In this document: positions 3,960 to 59,172 of the stretch, in pieces
How positions within the stretch are numbered: position 1 is the stretch's first letter
Layout: each line of letters begins with the position of its first letter
Assembly (NCBI GenBank): GCA_946699065.1
Contig: CAMPDV010000241.1
Span: 186,001-250,000 of the forward strand
Source: Loxodes magnus
Taxonomy: Eukaryota; Ciliophora; Karyorelictea; Loxodida; Loxodidae
Length of the DNA stretch: 64,000 nt
Direction: 5' to 3'
The notes under the pieces: model-generated
Told to the model about the DNA's origin: nothing
Databases searched by the model: none
The model's input: the letters and a program-made list of their open reading frames with translations, nothing else
Program-made: the position numbers and the translations under genes

Positions 3960-4782
3960 TATATATATATATAGTAAACTAAAAGTCAAAAAAAGTTTGC
4001 GTTCCCTGGAATCTAAACCAGGTTCTCGCTGCCAGTTTTTTAACGTGGTGGAAACCACGACCAAGTTTTTTAAGTGGGAGGTAACCACTATGATAATCTT
4101 CTTGTTCCGTTGGAAATCTTCTTCTTGAATACTCCTTATGGAGTTACGTATAGTCTTGTAAGTAATCTTCACGTCTTTTGATCTTCCTTTCTCTTTAGTT
4201 ACTTAAAGCTTTGGCAAGTCTTCAGTAAATGGTTATTTGAGTGGCAGAACCAGCATCTTCTATATTTGGTGATTTAAGGCTTGAATTCTGGATATAAGTG
4301 GCTCTCTATCTTTTCTATTCTAGCTATTAGATTCTATTCTTATTTCAATTCTTATTAATTCAATTAGTTCTATGTTTTTTATTCTTATTCAATGTCCATT
4401 CTGTCAACTTTGTTAGATCTAGATTAGGATTATAGTCAGAGTTGTTCTTTAGTCACTACTTGACTTTGTATCAGTTGATTCCTTAAACAGTTTGTTTCCT
4501 AATTAAGTTCTTCGATTGTATTTAGGAGTTCCCTTATCTTTTCCGCGAGATTAAATATTACCTCATCCTGCTTTTAGAAATTTTTCTTCATAAGTCAAAT
4601 TTGATTGCTTAATGATTCGATTGTATCAGATTCCTGCTCCTTAGTATTCCCTTCAAGGTGCTTTCCTTTTACCGATGGAGGAGAGTCAGGGTCGGTAAGT
4701 TCTTTTATTTGATGTTCTATTTGCTTTTATGCAAGCTTTCTGGCTTTCTTTGCTTCAATTTTCTACTGCTTGCTTAACATCT
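3960..4782 (-). mobile_element. Family B element, coiled-coil ORF with three-hairpin end
   Basis: An ORF starts at ATG 4778-4780 (MLSKQQKIEAKKARKLAQKQ) and continues as a Glu/Gln-rich coiled coil with segments LTDPDSPPSVKG, NLAEKIRELLNTIEELNQ and RMDIEQEQ. The 3' end (low coordinates, 4000-4095) holds three short hairpins in a row: CCTGG...CCAGG, CGTGGT...ACCACG and AGTGG...ACCACT. The same three-hairpin block recurs at 9237-9335, after a (TAA)n run, in a second copy. The repeated block at the 3' end suggests a recognition structure for the element's reverse transcriptase, as seen in many LINE/SINE pairs; that role is inference. No reverse transcriptase is visible nearby. Confidence 0.5.
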
Positions 4783-23208: not shown

Positions 23209-23282
23209 GCCTCCGTAGCTCAATAGGTTAGAGCGTTTGGCTGTTAACCAAAAGGTCGGTGGTTCAAGTCCACCCGGTGGCG
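23209..23282 (+). tRNA. tRNA-Asn (anticodon GTT)
   Basis: A complete cloverleaf of 74 nt. The acceptor stem GCCTCCG pairs with CGGTGGC, with one T-T mismatch at the fourth pair, and the discriminator is G. The A box is TAGCTCAATAGG, the anticodon stem-loop TTTGGCTGTTAACCAAA places GTT in the loop, and the T arm GGTGGTTCAAGTCCACC contains a perfect B box. There is no intron. A T6 run at 23283-23288 immediately follows and fits a Pol III terminator. Confidence 0.93.
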
Positions 23283-28757: not shown

Positions 28758-28865
28758 GAGTTATACTATTTAAAGATAAAGGTGAATAAAAATTTTTTAT
28801 TTAATAAAATTTAGGAAGTAAGCAGAATTAAGAAACATATTTTATTACAGAGAGTAAGTTTTATT

Positions 28866-30990
28866 AATATTCTTAATTTAGGTAAGTTAATTTAATATTC
28901 TTAACTTAGGTAAGTTAATTTAATATTCTTAATTTAGGTAAGTTAATTTAATATTCTAAACATATAGAAGGCAAATTTAATTTAATATTCTTAACTTAGG
29001 TAAGTTAATTTAATATTCTTAACTTAGGTAAGTTAATTTAATATTCCTAACTTAGGTAAGTTAATTTAATATTCTTAACTTAGGTAAGTCAATTTAGTAT
29101 TCTTAACTTAGGTAAGTTAATTTAATATTCTTAACTTAGGTAAGTTAATTTAATATTCTTAACTTAGGTAAGTTAATTTAATATTCTTAACTTAGGTAAG
29201 TTAATTTAATATTCCTAACTTAGGTAAGTTAATTTAATATTCTTAACTTAGGTAAGTTAATTTAATATTCTTAACTTAGGTAAGTTAATTTAATATTCTT
29301 AACTTAGGTAAGTTAATTTAATATTCCTAACTTAGGTAAGTTAATTTAATATTCTTAACTTAGGTAAGTTAATTTAATATTCTTAACTTAGGTAAGTTAA
29401 TTTAATATTCCTAACTTAGGTAAGTTAATTTAATATTCTTAACTTAGGTAAGTTAATTTAATATTCTTAACTTAGGTAAGTTAATTTAATATTCTTAACT
29501 TAGGTAAGTTAATTTAATATTCTTAACTTAGGTAAGTTAATTTAATATTCTTAACTTAGGTAAGTTAATTTAATATTCTTAACTTAGGTAAGTTTATTTA
29601 ATATTCTTAACTTAGGTAAGTCAATTTAATATTCTTAACTTAGGTAAGTTTATTTAGTATTCTTAACTTAGGTAAGTTAATTTAATATTCTTAACTTAGG
29701 TAAGTTTATTTAATATTCTTAACTTAGGTAAGTCAATTTAATATTCTTAACTTAGGTAAGTTTATTTAGTATTCTTAACTTAGGTAAGTTAATTTAATAT
29801 TCTTAACTTAGGTAAGTTAATTTAATATTCTTAACTTAGGTAAGTTAATTTAATATTCTTAACTTAGGTAAGTCAATTTAATATTCTTAACTTAGGTAAG
29901 TTTATTTAATATTCTTAACTTAGGTAAGTTAATTTAAAATTCTTAACTTAGGTAAGTTAATTTAATATTCTTAACTTAGGTAAGTTAATTTAATATTCTT
30001 AACTTAGGTAAGTTTATTTAATATTCGTAACTTAGGTAAGTTTATTTAAAATTCTTAACTTAGGTAAGTTTATTTAATATTCTTAACTTAGGTAAGTTTA
30101 TTTAATATTCTTAACTTAGGTAAGTTTATTTAATATTCTTAACTTAGGTAAGTCAATTTAATATTCTTAACTTAGGTAAGTTAATTTAAAATTCTTTACT
30201 TAGGTAAGTTTATTTAATATTCTTAACTTAGGTAAGTTTATTTAAAATTCTTAACTTAGGTAAGTTTATTTAATATTCTTAACTTAGGTAAGTTTATTTA
30301 ATATTCTTAACTTAGGTAAGTTTATTTAATATTCTTAACTTAGGTAAGTCAATTTAATATTCTTAACTTAGGTAAGTTAATTTAATATTCTTAACTTAGG
30401 TAAGTTAATTTAAAATTCTTAACTTAGGTAAGTTTATTTAATATTCTTAACTTAGGTAAGTTAATTTAATATTCTTAACTTAGGTAAGTTTATTTAATAT
30501 TCTTAACTTAGGTAAGTTAATTTAAAATTCTTAACTTAGGTAAGTTAATTTAATATTCTTTACTTAGGTAAGTTAATTTGATATTCTTAACTTAGGTAAG
30601 TTTATTTAATATTCTTAACTTAGGTAAGTTAATTTAATATTCGTAACTTAGGTAAGTTAATTTAAAATTCTTAACTTATGTAAGTCAATTTAGTATTCTT
30701 AACTTAGGTAAGTTAATTTAATATACTAAACTTATAGCATGTAAGTTAATTTAATATTCGTAACTTAGGTAAGTTAATTTAATATTCTTAACTTAGGTAA
30801 GTTAATTTAATATTCTTAACTTAGGTAAGTTAATTTAATATTCTTAACTTAGGTAAGTTAATTTAATATTCTTAACTTAGGTAAGTTAATTTAATATACT
30901 TAACTTATAGCATGTAAGTTAATTTAATATTCTTAACTTAGGTAAGTTAATTTAATATTCTTAACTTATGTAAGTTAATTTAATATTCTT
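28866..30990 (+). repeat. 28-bp palindromic minisatellite array
   Basis: About 75 head-to-tail copies of a 28-bp unit made of an 18-bp perfect palindrome, TTAACTTAGGTAAGTTAA (8-bp arms around GG), and the 10-bp linker TTTAATATTC. The palindrome is strongly kept; most variation is single-base and clustered by unit (TTTATT against TTAATT, AAAATTC against AATATTC), with higher-order runs of the same variant. Odd units occur near 28955, 30720 and 30900, the last two with AGCATGTAAGTTAA in place of AGGTAAGTTAA. The array begins about 110 bp after the stop of the RING-UBL gene and fades into GT-rich DNA after 30990. Confidence 0.95.
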
Positions 30991-30999
30991 ATTTTTTAT

Positions 31000-40249: not shown

Positions 40250-41521
40250 ATGTTAAAATCTTTTGATTTAATATAAATTGAAAATGGAGAGGATAATATT
40301 TTGGTTATGTGTAATTATGACTGAGTTAAGTCCATATCTTCCAGCGGGTGTAGAGGCGTTCACTGTAATACCAAGTAAAATCCCTACTGGAAATTATTCG
40401 GCAAGAATAAGTAATCAGGGACCTTAAGCATTGCAATGGCTTATAATCTGATCTACTTTCTTTACATCATATTAAAATGCTTCTGATTGTATTTAGCAAG
40501 TTCATTTGTATTTAATATCTTAGGTAAACTAATCAAAAGCTTTAGTTTATAAAGTCAGCTTTTCAAAAGGGAGGAGCTCAACATACTAATCTCCAGAGAA
40601 TAGAACATTTAAATCAGAAAGTCCCAAAGTAAAAAGAAGCAAAACTAAAATAGCTCTCATTTTTATTTATTTATTGTTATGCAAATAAGTAACTAATTCC
40701 ATATGATAGCTCTTTAATATATTAATATAACTTTAAATTAATTTCATTTGTTTACTTCCAATAACTCTAAATCATTAAAATATGGAAAAGTCATTTTAGT
40801 GGTAAAGAAGAAAGATTAGTTTAGATTTGAAGAAATAAATAGATATTTTTGTATTAAGCTAGATTTCTAAATTATGATATAAAGTTAAAGGAAAAAATGT
40901 GATAGTAGATCTTAAATGAATGCTTAGGACTTAAATAAAGATAAATATAATATCATCTTAACTTTTATTCATTAAAGCAAAGTTATTTCTCTTTAGCTTC
41001 TTAATAGTCGAAGTATCCTTATAGATAAAATAAATTTTATTAGCAATATAATTATTTAAATACGGAGGAGGAAACTCATTAAGAGATTTTTAAAAAATTT
41101 TGGGACAAGAAAGTAAACTATGAACTAAGAACTGATCAAGAGTCAAAGGAACAGGATTTGATGCATTGAGTAATGTCTAAGTTAAAAGATGTCCAGAATT
41201 TAAGATCTCTTGGAGAAGCATTCGATTGAAGTTGTATAGAAGACGAGATTGCTCAAGAAAAAGTAAGCAAAGAGGGGAAACTTCCAAAGAACCTTCAAAA
41301 CTGTAATAATTTTAATTTAAGAGCTTCTTGCAATTGGAGAGTTACATATTCTATAATCTAAGATTTTTTCAAGAGGCATCATAAGAATTTAAGCTTGTAA
41401 ATAATAAAATTTAGTTGGATTATAAAATAAATAAATATTTAAACAATTGAATAAATAGTATTTAAAATATAGAATCTATCAAATAAAAATTAGAGCATTT
41501 AATAAATTTTAATTAAAATGA
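40250..41521 (+). CDS. Protein with AP2-like N-terminal domain
   Basis: A phase-keeping frame of 423 codons from ATG 40250 to TGA 41519-41521, TAA/TAG read as Gln. Residues 1-30 (MLKSFDLIQIENGEDNILVM, then a TGA-coded Trp in NYDWVKS) lead into residues 31-70, which resemble an AP2 DNA-binding domain: SGCRGVHCNTKQNPYWKLFG, then an AMAYNL helix; known AP2 domains have the pattern SGYRGV...W...I followed by a helix with AAxAYN. The rest is basic and Gln-rich (KYGKVILVVKKKDQFRFEE, QRTFKTVIILIQELLAIG). From 41055 to 41400 another frame is also protein-like (LMHWVMSKLKDVQNLRSL), so the C-terminal assignment is uncertain. Possibly a transcription factor or a transposon-derived protein; AP2 domains also occur in mobile endonucleases. 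Confidence 0.45.
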
Positions 41522-47129: not shown

Positions 47130-47199
47130 GGACCTATGGTGTAATGGTGCACTTTGGATTCTGAATCCAATAATACGAGTTAGAGTCTCTGTATTTCCG
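47130..47199 (+). pseudogene. Degenerate tRNA-Gln (anticodon CTG)
   Basis: Clearly related to eukaryotic tRNA-Gln: GGACCTATGGTGTAATGG matches the acceptor and D arm, and TTTGGATTCTGAATCCAA is an intact anticodon arm with CTG. The acceptor stem has two mismatches (GGACCTA with TATTTCC), the D loop is short by two or three bases, and the T arm reads ACGAGTTAGAGTCTCTG, with two stem mismatches and A in place of the invariant C of TTC. A T6 run follows at 47200-47205. I read this as a decayed gene; a tRNA-derived promoter for the RNA-like units downstream is an alternative, though the B box is damaged. Confidence 0.7.
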
Positions 47200-47358
47200 T
47201 TTTTTGAAGTACTATAATTTTCTCATTTAAGATTGTTAAAACTACTTAATTTCAATTTAAACTTATATAGCCATTAATGATTAATTTATCCTTCTTTATC
47301 TTCACATACTTACTTTTATAATTTTAGCATTATAAATAAATAAATAAATTTGATTATA

Positions 47359-47390
47359 GAGCGCGTAGCACTCTCGTTGGTGCGCAGCTC
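47359..47390 (+). other. GC-rich hairpin
   Basis: GAGCGCG and CGCAGCTC pair over seven base pairs with one bulged A. This is the most GC-rich short word in the surrounding kilobase and is followed by TTTAAAAAAA. Confidence 0.5.
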
Positions 47391-47397
47391 TTTAAAA

Positions 47398-47535
47398 AAA
47401 ATGTTTCATACTGACAAGAATGTTTGTTACTGATAAAATTATCAGATACTGATAAACCTTGTTCAATACTGGTATAATTATTCAGTACTGATAAAAATGT
47501 TCAATACTGATATAATTTTAGAATACTCGTAATCT
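47398..47535 (+). repeat. Short imperfect tandem repeat, ATACTGATAAAA-type
   Basis: Six to seven degenerate units of about 22-26 bp, each with the core ATACTGATAA and a TGTTCA or ATTCAG word (for example at 47410, 47430, 47451, 47471, 47493 and 47511). It lies directly before the first structured RNA-like unit, so an upstream control region is possible. Confidence 0.6.
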
Positions 47536-47544
47536 TTTCTACTT

Positions 47545-47667
47545 GTTGGAGGTCCAAGGACATGGCAGGATTGTGTCTCATTGCATCACCAAAGCAGAGG
47601 ACGACATGTGTCAATTATGGGTACTTAAATTCCCCACCTCTGATGAAGCTCGCAATATTTTTTTTTT
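47545..47667 (+). ncRNA. Candidate structured RNA, unit 1
   Basis: The core is closed by CAGAGG (47595-47600) and CCTCTG (47637-47642) and holds two inner hairpins: GACATGTGTC and TGGG...CCCA around TACTTAAATT. Upstream, GACA...TGTC around 47566-47578 offers another stem. The unit ends in CTCGCAATA and a T10 run (47658-47667), a plausible Pol III stop. No protein-like frame. It is repeated 154 bp downstream with the same stems. Confidence 0.5.
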
Positions 47668-47706
47668 CTCCAGAATTAAAAATAAAATAAGTCAAGCCCA
47701 GTCAGT

Positions 47707-47832
47707 GTCGAAGGTCTAAGAATCTTATGTCTCGAGGCAAAACCAAAGCAGAGGAAGACATAAAGTCGATTATGGGTACTTAACTTCCCCAACCTCTGAT
47801 GAAGATGACCTTGTTGTTCACCTTCGAACAAC
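47707..47832 (+). ncRNA. Candidate structured RNA, unit 2
   Basis: Second tandem copy of the unit at 47545. The closing stem CAGAGG (47749-47754) and CCTCTG (47793-47798) is unchanged and the TGGG...CCCC hairpin is kept, but the first inner hairpin is now GAC...GTC around ATAAA instead of GACATGTGTC: the loop changed and pairing remains. After CCTCTGATGAAG this copy has a 7-bp hairpin GTTGTTC...GAACAAC and ends TATGGCGGTTT. Shared unpaired words are ACCAAAG before and ATGAAG after the core. Confidence 0.5.
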
Positions 47833-47839
47833 TATGGCG

Positions 47840-48600
47840 GTTTAAAAAAAATATAATAATTCACTAATACTAGAGCAAAATATTATATAATAAACAATTT
47901 TCAAGATTGTTAGTCATGAATGATTAGTTACAAAGTACTTTATAAAAGCATAATATTTGAGTCTATATTAATATATCTTACTATATCGATATAGGTTTGA
48001 TGCTTATTTAATATTTGTATAGTAAATAGAAATAGGAAAGCTATTATAATAGTATGTATATAAATAGTGCTGGTTTTCTATTTTGCCAAATTATAAGCTT
48101 ATGCAATGAACTAAATTCCAAGCTTTATAAATAGTTAGAATGAAAAATGTTAGTTAGCTTTAAATTTCTGATTTTAGGTTAGTTTATCTGATTTATTTAA
48201 TAATTTAAGTTTGATATGCTTTTTGACCTAATAGAATTACTTAATACTTAAATAATAAAATGGTTTGATATATTAAATTTGGCTTAGGTTTTTGAAGGTA
48301 TTTGTAAATAAATAATAAATTAGTAAGAGGTAATTGGTATCAATAGCTTGGTACATTGTATTTCATATGTATATATAATTTGACATTCTATTATTAGAGA
48401 ATTGATAGTCTTAAATCATATTTAATTAAAGGATTTATTTCTTATTTCATTTCTTTAATTTAGTTAAATCTATTGCTAATCACTTTGGCTTTAGTAATAT
48501 AGACAGAAATTTAGGAACTTATAAGCTGTTTTTAATACTACTGTATTTATGCTTCATTAGGTATTTTTTAGCTAACTCTTTTTTAGATAGGTATAAAAAG
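47840..48600. other. AT-rich spacer before the gene-dense part
   Basis: No gene recognised; it should contain the promoter of the gene starting at 48626. Confidence 0.35.
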
Positions 48601-57168: not shown

Positions 57169-59172
57169 TCACTATCCTTCCAACTCCCTTAATTAGCACT
57201 AGCTTGTTTTCTTCCTTAACGCTTCCAACTAATCCATTAGCTATTCAATTGTGTATTGTTTCTTCTCTTTATAGGATACTTCCCAGCTTTTTTAGTCAAT
57301 GTCGTAAACACTTATCTGGTTTCCGTCGTACACATAAATTTTCTTTTAGAAGACTATTGGGTTTTAGTTGCAAGCTTCTCCTGGGTAAGAAGCGTCTGTT
57401 ACCTGTTCATATTTTAGGCTCATCTACTACTCGTCTCATTATAGTTTATAGACTCCTTCTAAATACTGGCCAAACATATAAACATCCTCTAAATCATCTC
57501 TTACTAAACTAACTGTAGAACATAAAGGAAGGCAATCTGAAATTATATCCCATACTTTGAGTTATAAATCGTATTTTTATCCTAAAATTTATAGCGAGCT
57601 TGTGGAATCTTATCCACCTAGAACTATAATATTCTATTCCATAATGATGCTACCAAAGTTTTAATCGTTAAACAAAACTTCGTCAAACTCTTAGAACTTT
57701 TTTTCCTTTAGATTATAAAATTCACTTTTCTTATTGGCTTAATAAGGCTCAGTACCTGAAAAAATATACACTAAAGTGTTATTTGATACCGTGTTTCGAT
57801 GAACTATCCCAGGTGCACTTCTTGAATATAGCATTTAACCTTCTGATAATACCTGAAAACTATTTCTATCCAGAATTTGAAAATTCCTTGAGAAGCTTCC
57901 ACTCAGTTTACCTCCTGCTACGCAAATTCAGTTATCAGTATAATAAACAGTACTTTCTTCATCTATATTAATTTAAGAGCTTTACTATATAAATTCTTAG
58001 AATTGAGTACCATTTTATACTAGCATAGTATTACCATTCTTTATAAAACAGACAGTTGGAAGTTAAACTTACTGCTTTCACTACTGTTGCTATTTTAATT
58101 CCCTGGTATGCTATTTCTGTGAGTTTGAAGATTTATTTGTCTTCTATTTGCTCTCGATTCCTGTGTATGTATTCTCTTAAATGTCAACATCCTAAGATAT
58201 TGGATATTATAGTTGAGACTCATATTTCTGCTGTATTTATTATAGCCTTTATCTGAAATCTGCAATATTAGGCCTATTTTATGCTTCATAGCTAAATGAA
58301 TCTCTTAAAAGACTGGCCAGAAGTTCATCTTACATTATTTAATTTGAGAACTGCGGTATTTGATGATTTTACACGAAATTTTTAATTTCTTAGTAGCTTT
58401 TCAAAAGAGGAAAAGGAAGAGTTTCATTGAATATTTCTACCGCTACACAAGCAAGAGCTCAAATATCACTCGCATATGATATTTAGTTCTCAAAAACTTC
58501 AGGAGCCATTCATTGGGTAGTTCCTTTTATTTATGAACTGATAGAAGCGGAATAATCTCTTGCTAGTCCTAAGTCTCCAATTTTAGGAGAGTCACTATCG
58601 TCCGTTAGAATATTAAGGGATTTAATGTCTCTATGAATGATTCCAACATTATGTATAGCATGAATTCCTTCAGCTATTTAACCAAGCAACTTAATCTTTT
58701 TGTAAAATCGAAATTGAGTCTTATCTTGAAATTCTCTGAACAATTGTTTATTTTCTAATAGGTTTCTTAAGCTTCCTTTTTATTAGTAGTTTGTATAATG
58801 ACATAAGCAAAAGTTTTCTTCATTAGTTTCAATAGCAACTCCAATTAATCTTAGAACTCTTTAATGATTAACTGATAGAAGTTATTTGCATTCTATATAA
58901 TAATCGTTGATTAACTGTTGCTATGAAAAGCCTCTTTTTTAAGTCATTATTTTAAGTGCATAATCAAGTCCTTCAATTCTTATTACATAGACTGAACCAA
59001 ATGAACCTTATCCAATCTTCTTTAAGTTGTTCAAAATTTTTTAATTAGGTATTAATTGATCATAATCTCATATCCTTATTTGAGCTCTTAGGTCTCTCGA
59101 TGCACCTTGTGATTTTAATAACTATTATAAATCTTCAATAGAATAATCCTTAGCCTTTTTTTATTCCTCCAT
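57169..59172 (-). CDS. Protein kinase with C-terminal Kelch repeats
   Basis: 667 codons in one frame from ATG 59170-59172 to TGA 57169-57171. Kinase domain, residues about 45-330: glycine loop IGQGSFGSVYV (53-63), ATP-binding Lys74 in YALKIM, catalytic HRD (180-182), DLG (200-202) in place of DFG, activation segment ending GTTQWMAPE, then SDIWALACVAVEI. Kelch-like blades follow (about 370-640): WICVAGGKLSGSF, LVYIFSGTEPY, NIIVLGGQDS with KYDLQLKVWDII, YMFGQYLEGVYKLQW, KIYVYDGNQISVYDI with QKSWEV. Trp at 34, 221, 238, 365, 415 and 579 is encoded by TGA. Residue 365 joins the two halves: read as stop, it would give a bare kinase of 364 residues; as Trp, kinase and Kelch are one protein in the same frame. 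A Ser/Thr (TKL-like) kinase by inference. The ATG overlaps the end of the upstream gene by 38 bp; the stop lies 65 bp before the next gene's ATG. Confidence 0.88.

Follow-up and report, generated by a model that had tools for sequence, protein, structure and literature searches.

Several described classes of small RNA come close, in one trait or another, to the duplicated element reported here, which lies in a window (the whole stretch of DNA that was analysed) of 64 kb with 23.8% GC and a longest stop-free stretch of at most 120 codons. The C box of the box C/D snoRNAs reads RUGAUGA, and hammerhead ribozymes were defined for the comparison by CUGANGA, stem II, GAAA and the cleavage site NUH. 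In a box H/ACA snoRNA, a pocket hairpin is followed by ACA 14-16 nt below the pocket; a Pol III gene with an internal promoter has the A and B boxes within its transcript and a T-run as the terminator.

A further likeness can be found in the fungal candidate structured RNA motifs of Li and Breaker (2017, PMC5640933), which the consulted part of that paper presents as orphan candidates for small structured eukaryotic RNAs, as the element is here. Those motifs rest on 12 to 208 examples, as against two in our case, and the likeness is one of kind.

The duplicated element and the described RNA classes

The duplication of an element of about 80 bp is real: there are two direct copies in the same orientation, unit 1 at 47571-47648 and unit 2 at 47725-47804, with 83.75% identity over 80 columns (E 7.6e-15, self-BLAST of the window). 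The spacing of the copies changes from 154 to 156 bases along the units, which is caused by two 1-nt indels. An earlier note on this DNA had described two tandem copies that share the stem CAGAGG/CCTCTG, a TGGG hairpin and the words ACCAAAG and ATGAAG, with a run of ten T after unit 1; all of this was found again, the stem, hairpin and words in both units. The parts of the units and their immediate neighbours are as follows.

47405-47517, strand not given: tandem repeat array of 19/38 bp with TACTGATA words, upstream, 54 bp from unit 1
47580-47583 with 47653-47656, + strand: outer helix P0 of unit 1 in the joint fold; in two of its four pairs, both bases are changed relative to unit 2
47734-47737 with 47809-47812, + strand: outer helix P0 of unit 2, from the joint fold, the flank-column shuffles and the comparison of pairs
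47588-47594 (unit 1) and 47742-47748 (unit 2), + strand: ACCAAAG, the 5' strand of the internal loop, from the alignment of the copies
47595-47600 with 47637-47642, + strand: stem P1 of unit 1, CAGAGG/CCTCTG, invariant
47749-47754 with 47793-47798, + strand: stem P1 of unit 2, CAGAGG/CCTCTG, invariant
47603-47612 (unit 1, GAC-ATGT-GTC) and 47757-47767 (unit 2, GAC-ATAAA-GTC), + strand: inner hairpin P2
47618-47636 (unit 1) and 47773-47791 (unit 2), + strand: inner hairpin P3, TGGG/CCCA with an 11-nt loop, from the single-copy folds
47643-47648 (unit 1) and 47799-47804 (unit 2), + strand: ATGAAG, the 3' strand of the internal loop
47658-47667, + strand: T10 behind P0 of unit 1, with one A between; a possible Pol III-type terminator
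47813-47832, + strand: possible hairpin, GTTGTTC-ACCTTC-GAACAAC, following P0 of unit 2 at the place of the T-run of unit 1

The identity of the copies differs by block: 11 of 17 columns agree before ACCAAAG, 56 of 63 in the block that opens with ACCAAAG and closes with ATGAAG, and 3 of 9 beyond it. The best-kept block is a single hairpin domain composed of ACCAAAG, CAGAGG/CCTCTG, the two inner hairpins and ATGAAG. Beyond the units, the 45 nt upstream are aligned as well by 242 of 500 shuffles, and the downstream flanks (42/66 nt and 76 nt) by 118 and 303 of 500, respectively; considering that the flanks are at the shuffle level, the likeness of the copies is concentrated in the hairpin domain. 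The upstream word GGTCYAAG, common to both copies, may represent genuine homology. The GC content of 47545-47832 is 0.417 as compared to 0.238 for the whole window, which we counted in favour of a structured RNA; the surroundings look like an AT-rich, gene-poor, repeat-rich and decaying stretch.

The units resemble box C/D snoRNAs in the word CTGATGA (TGATGA at 47641 and 47797), which is near the C box; they differ from them in having C instead of a purine before UGAUGA, and their CUG is inside stem P1. This class was rejected: in 47520-47870, RTGATGA is absent from both strands and the + strand has no CTGA outside CTGATGA. The presence of CTGATGA in both tandem units is also a likeness to the hammerhead ribozyme, which was rejected as well, since neither strand of 47520-47870 has CTGANGA followed by GAAA and the + strand has no GAAA at all; hammerhead models are absent from the Rfam matches up to E 10. 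A box H/ACA snoRNA was rejected by eye on the + strand, where TAT (47656-47658) and TGT (47812-47814) are found 14-16 nt past P1; H-box-like words are frequent at this base composition. By the consensus sequences, the interval 47380-47900 lacks a Pol III A box and the units lack a B box; the B-box-like words of this interval are confined to the upstream array.

The earlier note could not match the units to tRNA, 5S, SRP, RNase P, spliceosomal or known ribozyme consensus sequences and had proposed an Rfam search as a check. The search (release 15, 4227 models, a match being a score at or above the gathering cut-off of the family) agrees with it: there is no match in 47340-47920. Five chance-level matches to snoRNA, miRNA and NsiR4 models (E 0.59-8.5) in the region of the units are far below the gathering scores, and the two tRNA matches across the window, at 23209-23282 and 47130-47199, are both outside the units. 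The note had also looked to a covariance model built from the two units for further copies. None came to light in the 64-kb window, the part that was searched with filters off: the units, from which the model was built, necessarily score high (116.7 and 108.2 bits), and the next best place, whose stems are mismatched, reaches 15.1 bits (E 0.2).

The plasmid collection contains no match to the units. In the phage collection there are five records at E 0.5, with the best places at query positions 81-122, i.e., in the upstream array and outside the units. No relative of the units was found by three sequence patterns in viral contigs or by two in prokaryote genome contigs; two of the patterns, used on both collections, fit both units, so the stretch as read in the window is present in neither. 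These collections consist of viral, plasmid and prokaryote DNA, and the absence is therefore weak evidence regarding a eukaryotic RNA. In a literature search for five sequence words, each of the matches listed contained CCTCTGATGAAG or CTTCATCAGAGG but not the three other words. Among the matches listed in further literature searches, nothing in the titles and abstract openings names this element.

Joint fold and double changes of the copies

The joint fold of the aligned copies consists of P0 (4 bp), P1 (6 bp), P2 (3 bp) and P3 (3 bp, or 4 bp in the single folds); in P3 it pairs GGG/CCC in a register slightly shifted relative to the TGGG/CCCA of the single copies. On the + strand, an energy as low is reached by 12 of 2000 column shuffles (z -2.90; 6 of 1000 in an earlier run), and for the core without P0 the count is 12 of 1000. 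On the - strand it is 6 of 2000 (z -3.42), with the same P1-P3 and with P0 shifted by one pair. Wobble pairs are no guide to the strand, since P0 of unit 2 contains a single G-U pair whichever strand is folded. A candidate fold of 47809-47842, including the GTTGTTC/GAACAAC hairpin that follows this helix, has an energy of -8.5 kcal/mol.

The earlier note placed a compensatory change in the first inner hairpin, and this we cannot uphold: GACATGTGTC and GACATAAAGTC have identical GAC/GTC, all three pairs are invariant, and the difference is in the loop only (ATGT as opposed to ATAAA). Two true double changes, which the note missed, are in the outer helix P0, where the pairs A-U, U-A, U-A and G-C of unit 1 correspond to G-U, A-U, G-C and G-C of unit 2 and the pairing is kept. 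Shuffling of the flank columns produces a helix of at least 4 bp common to both copies in 7.2% of cases, and in 0.9% one that also has at least two double changes; under a looser control, a helix of at least 5 bp anywhere in both flanks is obtained by chance in 17%. If the 3' letters are shuffled in the pair count, the observed values are reached in 121 of 500 trials (two sequences only), and hence covariation alone carries no significance with two rows; the general mark of a conserved structured RNA would be significant covariation across many homologues. In the core, substitutions affect none of the 24 paired columns as compared to 7 of the 39 unpaired ones (P 0.028).

Taken singly, the long extents of the copies have z values of 0.53 and -0.22 against dinucleotide shuffles; on the + strand, the cores have -1.23 and -1.52, or -0.80 and -1.95 with P0, and on the - strand the range is -0.45 to -1.86. 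Four windows on the units were compared with 1598 windows of 80 nt, of which 44 to 108 reach an equally good fold. All these tests were made after the fact, and the P values are optimistic, because the region was chosen for looking structured. A review of structural-RNA detection (PMC11234323) warns, in the part consulted, that alignments with low variation cannot decide and that pseudogenes are a hazard; both cautions apply to this two-copy case. We believe that a fold shared by both copies is modestly supported by their comparison. The description of the units as structured-RNA-like is supported in part by the joint fold and the double changes in P0, and not by the compensatory change it named; the single-copy folds are weak. 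The earlier observation as a whole is partly confirmed, and its interpretation partly supported.

A possible structured RNA and its alternatives

Our tentative reading is that both units are genes for small structured RNAs belonging to a single unnamed family, or relics of such genes, on either strand; we hold it possible and speak of a candidate rather than a finding. With only two copies, a working RNA cannot be proved and no class can be named. The conserved block coincides with one hairpin domain, its loop strands are fixed, and P0 is changed yet paired; judging from the letters, this would be the imprint expected of a structured RNA. The RNA would be about 80-110 nt long; its variable P0 would close off the conserved internal loop, and P2 and P3 would branch from a three-way junction on stem P1. 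The fixed strands ACCAAAG/ATGAAG could be its working surface, in contact with a ligand, a protein or a guide, and RNA polymerase III could terminate at the T10 that follows P0 of unit 1. We prefer the + strand because of this T10, which is the sole strand hint; runs of at least ten T occur on the + strand of the 64-kb window only three times, one of them being that behind unit 1. Transcription, strand, polymerase and function of the units are what we infer from these features. By analogy, invariant loop strands within a variable closing helix may be likened to the layout of ligand-binding or catalytic RNAs. The more specific proposal, an undescribed small eukaryotic RNA family represented by a tandem gene pair, with the fixed asymmetric loop ACCAAAG/ATGAAG, a variable outer helix and a fixed three-way junction, appears to us rather doubtful. 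Points against an RNA include that Rfam offers no match, the window has no third copy, no T-run follows unit 2, the single-copy folds are weak and both strands fold.

The last two points equally favour a function-free repeat relic, which we presume to be about as likely: a fragment of some 80 bp from a transposon or dead gene, duplicated or inserted twice, with chance pairing in a GC-richer piece and no RNA function. Other related pairs of segments in the window, at 68-93% identity (24871-26144/38786-40068, 6692-7473/15431-16233 and 2725-3676/55473-56422), agree with such an origin, as do a decayed-looking tRNA-like sequence, a lone kinase piece of 48 codons and the want of any stop-free stretch beyond 120 codons. 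On the other hand, the units are unlike the other repeats of the window (best E 0.084 outside the units and the array), no Pfam family is present in the pieces scanned, the similarity falls off on both sides at the strands of the internal loop, and the changes in the core avoid the stems.

A present or former protein-coding exon, or its duplicate, is improbable and was rejected. The earlier note had denied a coding frame; in fact, frames of 65 codons (47522-47716, + strand, over unit 1) and 41 codons (47720-47842, + strand, over most of unit 2) are open, and the GC content of the units is raised (0.40-0.42 in a 24% GC window), which would suit an exon. In effect the note was right, as a frame of at least 65 codons is present in 352 of 1000 dinucleotide shuffles of 47501-47860. 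An exon is expected to keep its frame between the copies and to change mainly in third positions; the units do neither, considering the two 1-nt indels and the nine substitutions in ungapped blocks, which are distributed 3/4/2 over the codon positions. Neither Pfam (best E 0.096) nor PDB (best E 0.093) gave a noteworthy protein match. An element acting at the DNA level, e.g., paired palindromic protein-binding sites beside the upstream 19-bp array, is very improbable in our opinion: the two strands do fold about equally well and the array is only 54 bp upstream of unit 1, but the paired segments are far apart, conservation is strongest in the loop strands, which the model leaves unpaired, and no binding site was identified.

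If the fold assumed for a structured RNA is genuine and further copies exist, the units would belong to a eukaryotic family of orphan structured RNAs that Rfam does not contain, and the prediction for such a family is clear: a variable P0 and a fixed internal loop. If not, they are a decayed duplicate of no special interest.

Neighbouring features of the window

To the right of unit 2, TATAATAATTCACTA resembles an array unit, and it was therefore considered whether the units had been inserted into the upstream 19-bp array. This was rejected: 123 of 1420 windows of 45 nt match the array as well or better. The array itself (47405-47517, TACTGATA words) contains two of the six B-box-like words of the window (GTTCAATAC). 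Another tandem array, at 28864-30991, repeats a 28-bp unit (TTAATATTCTTAACTTAGGTAAGTTAAT) about 75 times with 94% matches. The spot 3982-4143 is GC-richer (0.41 over 150 bases from 4001) and has GTGG/CCAC hairpins between short T-runs; the fold at 4001, with -24.8 kcal/mol, is among the lowest-energy 80-nt folds sampled.

Dispersed segment pairs also include 16631-16928/55836-56132 and 7496-8018/44368-44905, the whole set being 68-93% identical; the five pairs are probably transposon remnants. The likeness of the window to the transposon-filled AT-rich isochores of filamentous fungi is an impression only, and its RIP indices, TpA/ApT of 1.07 and (CpA+TpG)/(ApC+GpT) of 1.05, are borderline.

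An open frame of 51 codons at 40272-40424 (+ strand), with no Pfam match up to E 1, has a hydrophobic stretch after a near-start methionine that looks like a secretion signal by eye. The tRNA-like sequence at 47130-47199 scores 35.1 bits with the Rfam tRNA model and is missed by ARAGORN; its acceptor and T arms are damaged by eye, and it is probably a decayed tRNA, whose anticodon would be CTG (Gln). A good tRNA-Asn is present at 23209-23282. The isolated kinase piece of 48 codons is at 58534-58677 on the - strand (words HRDIK and DLGLAR, Pfam Pkinase E 2.8e-12), with no long frame around it; together with the tRNA-Asn and the dispersed repeats, it makes the window point to a eukaryote.
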